IMG/VR virus record: IMGVR_UViG_3300046478_000082 | Coordinates: 1-25,055 of that record | Direction: 5' to 3' (one strand) | Length of the DNA stretch: 25,055 nucleotides | Source of the DNA: a virus | Shown here: in pieces, positions 7,759 to 24,388 of the stretch | How the letters are laid out: the number at the start of each line of letters is the position of its first letter | Numbering within the stretch: position 1 is the first letter of the stretch | The notes under the pieces: generated by a model | Seen by the model: the letters and a program-made list of their open reading frames with translations, nothing else | Databases searched by the model: none | What the model was told of the DNA's origin: nothing | Translations under genes and position numbers: made by a program

Positions 7759-8274
7759 TTACGCTAATGTGCAGCGCAAGCTGATGATCCATAAATCGTT
7801 TGTGATTCGAGGAACTTCTGCAAACTTGTAACCTACAGAAGCGTTCAATGCTAATGGCCCATCATATATAGGTGGTCTATAGATAAAGCTCGCACTATAT
7901 CCGTCTTGCTCAATACATGCATATGCTTCCATACCAACACAGAATATGTTGTATACGGTATTGCCAAGGCTGGATGCATTAGGAGTCATTGAACCGATAG
8001 AAGATACAAGGAATCTAAGGTTACCAATTGCACCCCATTCTGAACGCAATGCATTCATCGGAGATGGATATTGGTTCTTTTGAATGAATCCGGATACTGC
8101 ATCAAGGTTACCGGTAAGTTGTGTAGAACAGAGCGCGAAATAAGCATCGCGAACTGGCGCTGTACCAAACTTATCTTCACCTTCAATATAATCCATGATG
8201 GTGTACGCATTGTTAGAAAGAAGCGTGCGAACCACTTCATCAACATCAGAACGAGTTATTTCAGTAGGATTGTC
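7759..8274 (-). CDS. Capsid exon 4 (C-terminal 171 residues)
   Basis: This exon begins directly after the terminal G of the second intron with D-NPTEITRSDVDEVVRTLL and runs to the capsid stop. It carries the C-terminal part of the N4-gp56 fold, including DYIEGEDKFGTAPVRDAYF and the final RITNDLWIISLRCTLA. The open frame extends back to 8352 into intron sequence, but those upstream residues (MQRLDRRIWPARLKPK...) are translated intron and are not part of the protein. Confidence 0.85.
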   Translation of the reverse strand, partial: DNPTEITRSDVDEVVRTLLSNNAYTIMDYIEGEDKFGTAPVRDAYFALCSTQLTGNLDAVSGFIQKNQYPSPMNALRSEWGAIGNLRFLVSSIGSMTPNASSLGNTVYNIFCVGMEAYACIEQDGYSASFIYRPPIYDGPLALNASVGYKFAEVPRITNDLWIISLRCTLA

Positions 8275-9479
8275 CGCTCTATTACTTGTGTGACCTGTCT
8301 TCGCCTTCGGCTTTAGACGGGCGGGCCAGATTCTTCGATCCAGCCTCTGCAACTTATCGATGCAGTTTAGACTATCGCTTCATCCCTGACGGGATGTCTC
8401 AGGATTTAGTCGTTCAGCGCGATTATATAATAAGTTTTTGTACCAAAGAACATCTTTCAAATCGTGATCTTTATGAGCTTTCCATCCAAGACCCTTCACA
8501 TCTTGATTTTCATCTATGCGGGTATCTATGTACACACAACCTTTTCCATAGTAGTAACCCATAAACAAATTTTTTCTCGGGTCGAAAGCATCATTATATT
8601 CGTAATAACTAGTTATTTTCATAAGAATCGGACGATTTAATTTAGGCTTTTCTTCCAAAAACGATATCCACATAATCTTCGCCCTTGTTTCCGGTTAGCC
8701 GATGGCCACTTCGGGGTCCAAGTCAATTACCCAAGATTTTACAACGGCAACACGTTTACCGTTGACACCACCAACACAGTTAATGAACGATGCTGTCGAT
8801 GCAAGCATATCACGAGTCAACTGATCCTCTGTTTGTCTTCAATCTATTACTTTTTATGACCTATGCAAAAGCATAGGCGGAGGGTCTTGTTAATCCCCTC
8901 TCCATTAATTTCTTAATGGTTTGGACTATAGCATACATCTTTAGGATGTCTTCACCGTTTAGTCTCTGCGGGTCTTGCATGAGTTCAATGAAAAAGGTTC
9001 CAATTGAGTCAAGTTCCCTCTGATTGTCTTCGCCATTACGCGGTAAGATTTTCCAGGTATTTAGGCAAAGTTTAATGTCGCCAAGTTTGTCTAGCGACAC
9101 ACCAAGACGCGCAGCACACTCATTCAAAACAGGGTCCTGATTTTGCAGAGTTACCTGTTCGTTGAGTTGCACATAGGTCAATTTCACGCCTTGATTCATA
9201 CGGCACCTAAGCTTTACCGTAAAACGAAATCTTCGCATCAATGTCTACCGCGGTCAGGTTTTGCGCCGGGGGCGTTACACCAGAGTTTCCTAATGGAACC
9301 ATCGCAGTATTCAACGGATTATACCTACGCATACGAAGCGTAGTACCACCATTACGCGGCATGTTTTTCTTCATGGCCGGTATCTTGTGGATCATGTTAG
9401 GCACCGGTACAGACAACAGTTTATAATTAAACGATTGCTGGACGGGCGCTGGCAACACGCTAGTTGTGGTAATTGCCAC
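7759..9479 (-). CDS. Major capsid protein, N4-gp56 family, gene split into four exons
   Basis: Exons are 9479-9216, 9178-9093, 8839-8758 and 8274-7759 (948 nt), giving 315 aa in one frame when the three interruptions are removed. Start is GTG at 9479 behind an AGGAG site. Family marks run in order across the exons: MPRNGGTTLRMRRYNPL (exon 1), YVQLNEQVTLQNQDPVLNEC (exon 2), RQTEDQLTRDMLASTASFIN (exon 3), then NPTEITRSDVDEVVRTLL (exon 4). I recognise these as N4-gp56 family capsid sequence, and each exon continues the previous one at the residue level. It is the shell protein. It follows the scaffold-like gene and a terminator. The two larger gaps are group I introns; the 37-nt gap is a puzzle. 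Without its removal the chain stops at codon 91 (TAG). Confidence 0.88.
8275..8757 (-). ncRNA. Group I intron 2 in the capsid gene (483 nt, ORF-containing)
   Basis: The 5' exon ends CAACGGT at 8758, and the intron internal guide GCCGTTG (8748-8742) pairs with it, leaving the U-G wobble at the splice site. P10 can form between the 3' exon start GACA and TGTT just before the guide. P7 strands are CGACTA (8412-8407) and TAGTC within GATAGTCT (8376-8369). P8 is CATCCC/GGGATG (8396-8391 / 8386-8381). The intron ends in G at 8275. Excision joins VNG to DNPTEIT in frame. These are the standard group I signatures. It encodes a 97-aa protein in a peripheral loop whose last codons run into P7 and P8. 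Confidence 0.88.
8380..8673 (-). CDS. Intron-encoded 97-aa protein, tentatively DUF551-like, not a homing endonuclease
   Basis: This ORF lies wholly inside the second intron. It starts at ATG 8673 with a purine-rich AAGGGCGAAG site upstream and ends with TGA in the P8 stem. The protein begins MWISFLEEKPKLNRPILMKI, has a Tyr/Gly-rich middle (GYYYGKGCVYID) and ends its conserved-looking part at DVLWYKNLLYN. The N-terminal WIS...P..ILM and late Trp layout vaguely recall DUF551 proteins found in many phages. No LAGLIDADG, GIY-YIG, HNH or His-Cys motif is present. The C-terminal tail (AERLNPETSRQG) is translated ribozyme core, so it is constrained by RNA rather than protein function. Function unknown. 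Confidence 0.6.
   Translation of the reverse strand: MWISFLEEKPKLNRPILMKITSYYEYNDAFDPRKNLFMGYYYGKGCVYIDTRIDENQDVKGLGWKAHKDHDLKDVLWYKNLLYNRAERLNPETSRQG
8840..9092 (-). ncRNA. Group I intron 1 in the capsid gene (253 nt, no ORF)
   Basis: The 5' exon ends TGTCGCT at 9093 and pairs with the guide GGCGACA (9082-9076), with a U-G wobble at the splice site. P10 can form between 3' exon AAG and CTT just before the guide. The R strand is GCAGAGACTAAACG (8969-8956), close to the group I consensus, and the S strand contains TATAGTCC (8930-8923); GACTA/TAGTC form P7. ACATC/GATGT between them form P8. The last base is G at 8840. Excision joins GVS-L to RQTEDQLTRD, with codon CT|A split across the junction. 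It is a compact intron lacking a homing-endonuclease gene. Confidence 0.9.
9179..9215 (-). other. 37-nt core-less group I intron remnant (or mini-insert) in the capsid gene
   Basis: The insert lies between capsid codons GGT (Gly88) and ACC. The exon end TACGGT (9221-9216) pairs with GCCGTA (9204-9199), a P1 helix with the U-G wobble. TAGGT (9209-9205) just before the guide pairs with the 3' exon ACCTA (9178-9174), a P10 helix. The last base is G, as in group I introns. Only 20 nt remain after the guide, so P3-P8 are absent. Its length is not a multiple of three and it carries an in-frame TAG, so it would destroy the capsid if left in the mRNA. Confidence 0.75.
9216..9479 (-). CDS. Capsid exon 1 (N-terminal 88 residues)
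   Basis: Exon 1 starts at GTG 9479, 6-7 nt after AGGAG, and ends with the GGT codon of ISFYG. The next codons, Lys-Ala-stop, belong to the 37-nt insert. It carries the N-arm and the MPRNGGTTLRMRRYNPL strand, a strong mark of the N4-gp56 capsid family. The GTG start may moderate translation. Confidence 0.85.
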
Positions 9480-10984: not shown

Positions 10985-11020
10985 ATCAAATATTTTTATA
11001 CTTTTACTCCCAATTTATAA
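10985..11020. repeat. 36-bp direct repeat, copy 1
   Basis: Identical to 11261-11296, starting ATCAAATATTTTTATACTTT and ending CCCAATTTATAA. This copy is about 40 bp upstream of the 159-aa virion gene on the minus strand. Read that way, it has TTGGGA followed 17 nt later by an AT-rich hexamer, so a promoter is possible. Confidence 0.85.
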
Positions 11021-11165: not shown

Positions 11166-11210
11166 CATTCATATAGAAGTTTTTCATAAAAGAGGAGTTC
11201 TATATGAATG
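11166..11210. repeat. 13-bp perfect inverted repeat with 19-bp loop
   Basis: CATTCATATAGAA (11166-11178) pairs with TTCTATATGAATG (11198-11210). The right arm holds the start codon of the 30-aa plus-strand ORF, and its GAGGAG ribosome site lies in the loop. It could be an operator or an RNA hairpin that hides the start codon. Confidence 0.75.
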
Positions 11211-11296
11211 CACATGCATCCACTGCCAATCAGCACGTTCGGGGCACGCAATTGTCGCCCATCAAATATTTTTATACTTTTACTCCCAATTTATAA
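11204..11296 (+). CDS. Possible 30-aa peptide ending inside the 36-bp repeat
   Basis: ATG at 11204 follows GAGGAG by 7 nt, an excellent ribosome site. The frame reads MNAHASTANQHVRG... and ends IKYFYTFTPNL with TAA, the last three bases of repeat copy 2. The match of stop codon and repeat edge may mean that the repeat was inserted here or is a duplicated gene end. The ORF is short and has no recognised family, so coding remains uncertain. Confidence 0.3.
   Translation: MNAHASTANQHVRGTQLSPIKYFYTFTPNL
11261..11296. repeat. 36-bp direct repeat, copy 2
   Basis: Exact copy of 10985-11020, 276 bp away in the same orientation. The two copies bound a segment holding the 12-bp tandem repeat and the 13-bp inverted repeat. 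A duplication or a recombination scar would explain the arrangement. Confidence 0.85.
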
Positions 11297-16134: not shown

Positions 16135-16227
16135 ATCGTAGTTTAAAGTTTAGGACTGGCACCTACTCTGTATCGTTATTTATTTTTGAACCAAGAATTA
16201 TTATTGCGGACACGCAAAGAATACAGT
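16135..16227. repeat. 93-bp direct repeat, copy A (upstream of the portal)
   Basis: 92 of 93 positions match copy B at 18244-18336; the sole difference is GGCAC versus GACAC. On the minus strand it holds the 3' end of the 30-aa membrane ORF but lacks that ORF's start, so it is a truncated gene copy. It sits after the methyltransferase stop and before the portal leader. Confidence 0.92.
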
Positions 16228-16304
16228 CGAACGCGCACTGGGCAAGATCAGGAATCAGCTTTTTGTTGGAAAGATAATAACTGAAAATCGCGGGTTCTCA
16301 TTAT

Positions 16305-18243: not shown

Positions 18244-18336
18244 ATCGTAGTTTAAAGTTTAGGACTGACACCTACTCTGTATCGTTATTTATTTTTGAAC
18301 CAAGAATTATTATTGCGGACACGCAAAGAATACAGT
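18244..18336. repeat. 93-bp direct repeat, copy B (upstream of the methyltransferase)
   Basis: Matches copy A with one mismatch, 2109 bp away in the same orientation. This copy keeps the complete 30-aa ORF, which enters it from 18364. The two copies define a methyltransferase cassette that may have been inserted or could be lost by recombination between them. Confidence 0.92.
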
Positions 18337-18364
18337 AGAGAGCAACAAACAGAAGAATATTCAT
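18272..18364 (-). CDS. 30-aa membrane peptide partly inside the 93-bp repeat
   Basis: The ATG at 18364 follows a near-perfect AGGAGG by 5 nt, a strong ribosome site. The peptide opens MNILLFVALYCILCVSAIII and ends with the polar LGSKINNDTE, giving one membrane span over residues 3-22. Its last 21 codons are duplicated as the truncated copy A before the portal, showing that the gene once stood directly upstream of the portal or that its end was copied with the cassette. Function unknown; it resembles other phage single-span peptides. Confidence 0.5.
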   Translation of the reverse strand: MNILLFVALYCILCVSAIIILGSKINNDTE

Positions 18365-23842: not shown

Positions 23843-24388
23843 ATGTATCTTGCTTCAGCTTCTCCTGGAGAAAGAGTACGTATTGAAGCAAAGTTCTGGT
23901 CCAACGTAGACATAAAAAGCCCTACAGAATGTTGGATGTGGAAAGGACCGGTCACCAAAAAAGCTGGTTATGGTTGGTTTAAAGTATATAACCCTAAAAA
24001 ACGATCCGCGTTTCCAATATCTGCACATAGATTAGTGTGGGAGATTTATTATAAAGCATCTATCCCAACTGCCCTATGTTGCTGCCACTCTTGCGATGTA
24101 CGAACCTGTGTAAATCCTTTACATATATTCATTGGTACTCGTTCTCATAATAGATATGATACTATTCGTAAAGGTAAAAACCTCAAAATAAGTAATGAAG
24201 AAGCTATTATTATAGTTGAAAAGCTTCTGACGGGGTATCCTCCTATAATACTAGCGAAAATGTTTGGATACTCAGATAGAGGGATAGAGAAGTTGGTTAA
24301 AAGACCAATCATAATACAAAAGTTCGGTGTTATAAGCCTTAAAGGTAAATGTGGCCAAACAGTTCGTCGGGCACCAATAACACCGTGA
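23843..24388 (+). CDS. HNH endonuclease, free-standing homing-type
   Basis: A 181-residue protein. CWMWKG near residue 30 and YGWFKVYN are the opening of the HNH_3-type fold. SAHRLVWEIYYK (about 60-71) supplies the first His. CHSCDVRTCVNPLH (81-94) and FIGTRSHNRYD (97-106) complete the HNH and a zinc-binding-like cysteine set. Residues 117-152 (SNEEAIIIVEKLLTGYPPII...) probably form a helix-turn-helix for target contact. It cuts DNA, and such genes often move by homing. It stands alone in the early block, 30 nt after erf with its own AGGA. It might supply the endonuclease that the endonuclease-less capsid introns lack; that is speculation. Confidence 0.85.
   Translation: MYLASASPGERVRIEAKFWSNVDIKSPTECWMWKGPVTKKAGYGWFKVYNPKKRSAFPISAHRLVWEIYYKASIPTALCCCHSCDVRTCVNPLHIFIGTRSHNRYDTIRKGKNLKISNEEAIIIVEKLLTGYPPIILAKMFGYSDRGIEKLVKRPIIIQKFGVISLKGKCGQTVRRAPITP

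Follow-up and report, generated by a model that had tools for sequence, protein, structure and literature searches.

The capsid gene of a phage recorded as IMG/VR virus IMGVR_UViG_3300046478_000082 (positions 1 to 25,055 of the record, the whole stretch of 25,055 nucleotides (nt) being called the window hereafter) is interrupted after its 88th codon by a 37-nt insert, AAAGCTTAGGTGCCGTATGAATCAAGGCGTGAAATTG (9215-9179, minus strand). Analyses of the insert and its relatives indicate that it is very probably a core-less, non-autonomous intron of group I type, which would be excised by the ribozyme of the neighbouring full intron, most likely in cis and ahead of that intron's own removal. The anatomy of the insert, the covariation of its strands, its association with full introns and the intactness of the capsid gene are shown by the sequences.

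Anatomy of the insert

A first-pass annotation made from the letters of the window had recognized a P1 pairing between exon 1 and the insert (TACGGT/GCCGTA, with U-G at the junction), a P10 pairing between the insert and exon 2 (TAGGT/ACCTA) and a terminal G, and all of these were confirmed in the minus-strand sequence. Translation also bore out that exact removal of the 37 nt restores the frame, which then reads FYG-TYVQLNEQ, and that retention gives an early stop (K-A-stop). The insert therefore has the hallmarks of a group I intron, namely a P1 whose U-G pair marks the 5' splice site, a P10 formed with the 3' exon, and a terminal G. A catalytic core (P3-P8) was searched for in the insert with the covariance model R1 (see below), and none was found; such inserts total 28-53 nt. 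Because it has no core, the insert is not a group I intron by membership; it works like the substrate of one. Read from 5' to 3', such inserts generally begin with an A-rich leader (0-20 nt), which is followed by the P10 strand and GCCGTA; after a joint, in most cases 3 nt long, come the guide (9-12 nt), a tail and the final G.

Distribution of the insert in related phages

When IMG/VR was searched at the protein level with exons 1 and 4 (protein-driven search), 157 related loci emerged, in which the exons were mapped, and a DNA pattern search (TACGGT/GCCGTA) yielded at least 80 stretches with at least 63 distinct contexts. A second pattern with a compensatory P1 (TATGGT/GCCATA) gave seven matches, three of which were capsid loci (L233, L237 and L238); the other four (L234, L235, L236 and L239) were chance matches outside capsid genes and were left out of the count. 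As a result, short inserts of 28-53 nt exactly between amino acid positions (aa) 88 and 89 of the capsid protein were identified in at least 64 distinct sequences from many metagenomes. One further case came from a carrier contig of a GenBank metagenome-assembled genome (MAG; L240), and a near-identical second contig of the window phage (L002) carries the same insert. Modulo 3, every length class occurs among the inserts, almost all of which hold a stop. No full-length intron at aa88/89 was found by exon mapping in any of the 157 related loci, a check that the first-pass annotation had proposed.

The layout was formulated as a descriptor comprising P1 with U-G, P10, the terminal G, a joint of 2-4 nt, a guide helix of 9 base pairs and an adjoining P1. 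Over 1.82 Mb, the descriptor found 48 distinct cases, all at the capsid site, plus one other match, and on shuffled copies of the same set it gave 0-2 matches each (mean 0.75). The recurring anatomy exceeds chance expectation. On a quick capsid tree, carrier labels were as scattered as shuffled ones (35 changes vs 35.4), which suggests mobility, the tree being rough, with some misaligned long branches, and its count of gains not to be trusted.

Covariation of P1 and P10

The P10 pairing with codon 89 was fully Watson-Crick in 59 of 59 sets. The combinations of codon 89 and insert strand were ACC/GGT (41), ACT/AGT (8), ACA/TGT (6) and ACG/CGT (4), and the third base of codon 89 thus covaries with the P10 strand through all four Watson-Crick pairs. 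In P1, a compensatory change from C-G to U-A (TATGGT/GCCATA) was found in the three capsid loci of the second pattern. Among the protein-driven carriers TACGGT always occurred with GCCGTA, whereas about 10 of 112 non-carriers have TACGGT and the site varies freely. A terminal G closes every insert; the pattern search demanded this base, and the protein-driven sample agrees with it.

The guide helix between the insert and exon 2

A third helix, which the first-pass annotation had overlooked, joins the guide of the insert to exon 2 and points to the intron that would act as the ribozyme. Within exon 2, the stretch complementary to the guide shifts with the position of the full intron that follows (aa97, aa105 or aa117). 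In class I, with the intron at aa97, the exon ends in ...CAATTAAAC-GAGCAGGT and the guide is GTTTAATTG or a matching variant; in class II (aa105) the exon ends in ...CAGAATCAG-GATCCCGT and the guide is CTGATTCTG; in class III (aa117), to which the window belongs, the exon ends in ...CGTCTTGGT-GTGTCGCT and the guide is ATCAAGGCG. In every class the paired exon stretch ends 1 nt before the 7-nt P1 strand of the full intron, and that nucleotide can extend either helix.

The guides track both synonymous exon changes (CAG/CAA and AAT/AAC) and changes of amino acids (QLN, ILN, TLN, VIN and AIN). Pairing with the own guide reached 8.3/9 in class I vs 6.2 when guides were permuted within the class, and 8.9/9 vs 8.1 in class II, with none of 5000 permutations as high in either class. 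The guides are also specific to the target of their class: those of class II paired at 8.9/9 with their own aa105 target vs 5.4 at the class I (aa97) target, and those of class III at 7.9 with target III vs 5.6 at I and 6.0 at II. In MAFFT alignments, the named structure was paired in 100% of cells vs 28-46% in slid controls, and two-sided changes in paired cells numbered 14 and 39 in the two alignments, with none of 500 shuffles as high. Ten examples covering all classes, the window among them, were folded by minimum energy, and each gave three hairpins in succession: P1, then after 2-3 nt the P2-like helix, and directly adjoining it the P1 of the next intron.

The full introns that follow the insert

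The full intron begins about 26-86 nt of exon after the insert (86 nt in the window). In the protein-driven, de-duplicated sample, an intron at aa89-128 was present in 26 of 26 carriers vs 18 of 75 non-carriers (57 without; Fisher 1e-12), and each of the at least 63 distinct contexts of the pattern sample that no contig end cuts off has a class I, II or III site downstream. Most introns of non-carriers lie elsewhere (at aa91, 99 and 104, and in phase 0 at aa117). The mini-intron accompanied every class I and II site observed, and one class III intron (L059) lacked it.

Since Rfam misses the other introns of the family, even those lacking an open reading frame (ORF), the family covariance model R1 was built, from class I and II introns only; it nevertheless finds the class III intron of the window end to end (97.9 bits, E 1e-27). 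R1 detects introns in the carrier loci searched and none in intron-less loci. The Rfam scan of the window gave the aa117 intron as the sole group I match (RF00028, 40.1 bits, E 2.8e-8), with a score that falls short of the gathering threshold of 50. Both halves of the second full intron, at aa144, match R1 (E 1e-18 and 4e-7), and by these RF00028 and R1 matches the two intact group I introns that had been read in the gene are genuine. RNAalifold analysis of ten ORF-less full introns showed covariation in P1, P3, P4, P5, P6, P8 and P9, with two-sided changes in 29 of 54 pairs; in P7, U-A, A-U and G-C exchange in the alignment, and P10 was read by eye only. The group I helices P1, P3-P9 and P10 are thus present and P2 is absent, as is known for some group I introns (PMC3984707). 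Longer full introns often carry LAGLIDADG endonuclease genes on the strand opposite the capsid gene (L032, L040, L034, L109, L124 and others). Homing endonuclease proteins used as baits for the layout in other genes returned the same loci or one distant match only.

In this phage family the capsid gene is a hotspot of introns: among different contigs (loci L002-L157), full introns were seen at about aa 31, 52-54, 70, 91, 97, 99, 104, 105, 117, 144, 174, 181, 224, 258 and 274.

Intactness of the capsid gene

Exon 4 has an omega of about 0.027 in carriers and 0.024 in non-carriers, without stops, and the gene is single-copy in 15 of 15 carrier records, in one of which it is split by introns into three matches. 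Carrier capsid genes are alive and under purifying selection. Because the gene is single-copy and selected in this way, and because the inserts fall into all modulo-3 classes and contain stops, the insert must be removed or bypassed.

Proposed mechanism

The splicing chemistry, the order of excision and the action in cis are inferred from sequence. The insert would be the substrate half only, providing P1 with its internal guide sequence, the P10 strand, a 3-nt joint, the 5' strand of the P2-like helix and the terminal G, and the complete downstream intron would supply the catalytic core P3-P8. Pairing of the guide with the end of exon 2, abutting the downstream P1, would bring the insert P1 and both splice sites beside that core. 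As the downstream P1 directly adjoins the guide helix, the layout can be likened to P1-P2-P2.1-P3, with that P1 acting as an outer arm until the mini-intron is gone. An exogenous G would then attack after TACGGU in P1, exon 1 would be joined to ACC held by P10, and the 37 nt would be released. The guide helix would be lost with the insert, after which the downstream P1 could dock and the downstream intron excise itself. The mini-intron is expected to leave first, because the guide helix needs the flank of the downstream intron. The P2-like hairpin is about as long as P1 plus P10, and therefore its loop, which contains the 3' splice site, could come to rest next to the 5' splice site.

Several points weigh against this mechanism. 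Natural group I introns set the 3' splice site partly from P9/P9.0; a 3' splice site in the loop of the P2-like helix would be positioned differently and is sterically unproven. Class III has five members only, with weaker guide pairing (7-8.5/9), and the covariation of the guides by within-class permutation rests on classes I and II, not on the class of the window. The pattern searches presupposed TACGGT/GCCGTA or TATGGT/GCCATA, and the invariance of P1 is partly ascertainment because the patterns fixed P1 beforehand, although the protein-driven sample agrees. The loci share ancestry and recombination, and their counts are not independent events. Finally, spliced class I products were sought among viral contigs and none was found.

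Alternative explanations

The same chemistry might act in trans, catalysed by a different group I intron or by copies of the downstream intron after their excision, with the guide helix merely folding the substrate. P1 and P10 of the insert would form a ready-made substrate, suitable for docking in any group I core, and engineered trans-excising ribozymes work (PMC4094466). However, the guide target always adjoins the P1 of an intron in the same gene, with the helices abutting, and such spacing is meaningful only on one RNA; because the two helices abut on the same transcript, cis action is favoured and we regard the trans version as unlikely. The suggestion of the first-pass annotation that a neighbouring ribozyme splices the core-less insert in trans is strongly supported as to the neighbour, by recurrence, covariation and strict association with a group I intron downstream, with the chemistry inferred, and disfavoured as to trans, the geometry favouring cis. 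Translational bypassing, in which the insert would stay in the messenger RNA and ribosomes would hop over it while the pairing brings take-off and landing sites together, appears very unlikely. The insert is similar to bypass elements in size, in its stop near the start and in the structure round the take-off site, and matched codons are not strictly needed in Magnusiomyces mitochondria (PMC5009743). Nevertheless, a GGN landing codon before ACN occurs in no insert (AAG, TTG, ATG, TAG and others stand there instead), and bypassing predicts neither the strict association with a group I intron further down, nor the retargeting of the guide with intron position, nor the geometry of P1, P10 and terminal G.

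The ends of the insert look like an intron with its middle deleted, as if it were the decayed remnant of a once complete aa88/89 intron in a gene that is dead or rescued by another copy, a reading that had also been offered for the insert as a decayed intron in a dead genome. That origin is highly improbable: none of the 157 loci has a full intron at the site, P1, P10 and guide are kept and covary, and the capsid genes are intact, single-copy and under purifying selection. Joining of the 5' splice site of the insert to the 3' splice site of the downstream intron, with exon 2 skipped as a regulated alternative product, is conceivable in that both sets of splice sites are present with one core for both, yet it is hardly credible; the aa88 junction is in phase 0 and all three downstream introns are in phase 2, so that skipping shifts the frame, and the P10 of the insert covaries with the base directly after the insert, not with the distal exon. 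The earlier concern that assembly had collapsed a longer intron has a virtually negligible chance of being right. Single contigs can be misassembled, but an artefact is excluded because the insert recurs, in about 60 different forms, across many metagenomes, L002 and the GenBank MAG contig.

Genome context

The window belongs to a podovirus-like phage, with a P22-type portal, terminase, N6/N4 methylase and ERF recombinase among its genes, and a search of isolated phages for a close capsid relative found none, the phage having no cultured close relatives. On the 25-kb contig the capsid gene runs along the minus strand, and its four exons (Table 1) total 948 nt, corresponding to 315 residues plus the stop.

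Table 1. Exons, introns and pairing strands of the capsid gene in the window
Feature	Positions	Strand	Remarks
Capsid exon 1 (88 codons, GTG start, 3' end ...TTT TAC GGT)	9216..9479	-	PHROG 1357 major head protein, E 3e-8
P1 of mini-intron, 5' strand TACGGT in exon 1	9216..9221	-	pairs with 9199-9204, U-G at junction
Mini-intron, the 37-nt core-less insert at aa88/89, last base G	9179..9215	-	recurs in at least 64 distinct capsid sequences
P10 strand TAGGT in insert	9205..9209	-	pairs with ACCTA 9174-9178
Internal guide sequence GCCGTA (P1 3' strand of mini-intron)	9199..9204	-	complementary to TACGGT
Guide (P2-like 5' strand) ATCAAGGCG, 3 nt past internal guide sequence	9187..9195	-	pairs with exon 2 9101-9109
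Capsid exon 2 (TYVQLNEQ...GVSL, 3' end ...TCG CT)	9093..9178	-	exon mapping
P10 strand ACCTA in exon 2	9174..9178	-	pairs with TAGGT 9205-9209
P2-like 3' strand CGTCTTGGT in exon 2, just upstream of P1 strand of aa117 intron	9101..9109	-	pairs with 9187-9195
P1 5' strand TGTCGCT of aa117 intron	9093..9099	-	pairs with GGCGACA 9076-9082
aa117 intron, complete group I intron without ORF, putative source of the ribozyme for both excisions	8840..9092	-	RF00028 and R1 matches
Capsid exon 3	8758..8839	-	exon mapping
aa144 intron, second full group I intron, ORF 8380-8673 inside	8275..8757	-	R1 matches 8765-8555 and 8508-8275
Capsid exon 4	7759..8274	-	PHROG 1357, E 9e-11

Elsewhere in the window, a 96-nt direct repeat (98% identical; 16135-16230 and 18244-18339) flanks a DNA N6/N4 methyltransferase gene as though this were a mobile cassette, and an identical 36-nt repeat (10985-11020 and 11261-11296, 276 nt apart) lies in non-coding DNA, together with an inverted repeat at about 11170-11210. 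A free-standing HNH homing-endonuclease-like gene was found at 23843-24388 (PF13392, below the curated cut-off). Relatives of the phage occur in the MAG bins of L241 (Simkaniaceae, chlamydial) and L240 (Methylococcaceae, methanotroph), and the binning may be wrong.

Comparison with known systems

The first-pass annotation knew of no natural case of this kind, and a natural intron served by the core of another intron was likewise not found in the literature, the search covering open-licence papers only, with an unseen report possible. Among engineered group I ribozymes, spliceozymes and those for trans-excision splicing (PMC4094466, PMC4509937 and PMC6155759) remove a core-less internal segment and join its flanks, as is proposed here for the downstream intron; the association, the guide helix and the intact gene support such a likeness. 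They differ in being designed in the laboratory, acting in trans, being of Tetrahymena type, carrying the guide on the ribozyme and using P9.2/P9.0 for the 3' site; here, in a natural setting, the internal guide sequence and the helix strand belong to the small intron, and the partner is the exon beside the ribozyme. Split, trans-spliced group I introns of mitochondrial cox1 (Helicosporidium, Isoetes and Trichoplax; PMC2813288) similarly need RNA that is non-contiguous with the 5' part, but their pieces form one complete intron that is spliced once, whereas in the capsid gene the core belongs to another, complete intron that has a P1 of its own, and excision would take place twice. The two segments do not make up a split intron, the downstream intron having its own P1 and 5' site and both segments having to leave to give the frame.

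Twin-ribozyme introns (Didymium and Naegleria; PMC4167309) have two RNA-processing activities per transcript in common with the present system, but there two ribozyme domains lie in one intron and here one ribozyme would serve two introns. The bypass elements of T4 gene 60 and Magnusiomyces (PMC5009743) are likewise short interruptions of essential genes with structure at the take-off site; unlike the inserts, they are skipped by ribosomes and are without P1, P10, terminal G or dependence on a group I intron. Ordinary P2-less phage group I introns, in the ribonucleotide reductase gene of CRP-118 (L246) and the coat gene of Podoviridae ctn9Y15 (L245), have the same core, with P1, about 5 nt and P3. 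A mini-intron was sought with a relaxed descriptor in CRP-118, ctn9Y15 and SRB7757, and none was convincing, the descriptor giving scattered chance matches.

These two related group I introns are not labelled as introns in the records; they lie at 2501-2613 of L246, from the cultured Roseobacter phage CRP-118, and at 3001-3111 of L245, in a coat gene of P22 type.

Implications

We consider it likely that a natural class of such elements exists, made up of introns of about 30-50 nt that consist of the substrate alone, each directed by a guide helix between intron and exon to the ribozyme of a self-splicing neighbour, with the pair spreading as one mobile unit. Intron annotation based on the core misses such segments, and capsid genes with inserts look broken. 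To our knowledge, all group I introns carry or jointly assemble their own core, and removal of a core-less segment by another core has only been engineered; the mini-intron would therefore be the first natural example in which a single RNA enzyme also acts on another, core-less intron. If this is true, one RNA enzyme removes two introns in sequence, which would be the group I counterpart of the step to a shared splicing machine. Dependence on a supplied ribozyme is the usual proposal for the origin of the spliceosome, and a natural case supported by covariation would show introns losing their ribozyme and relying on that of a neighbour, in a small and testable RNA system.
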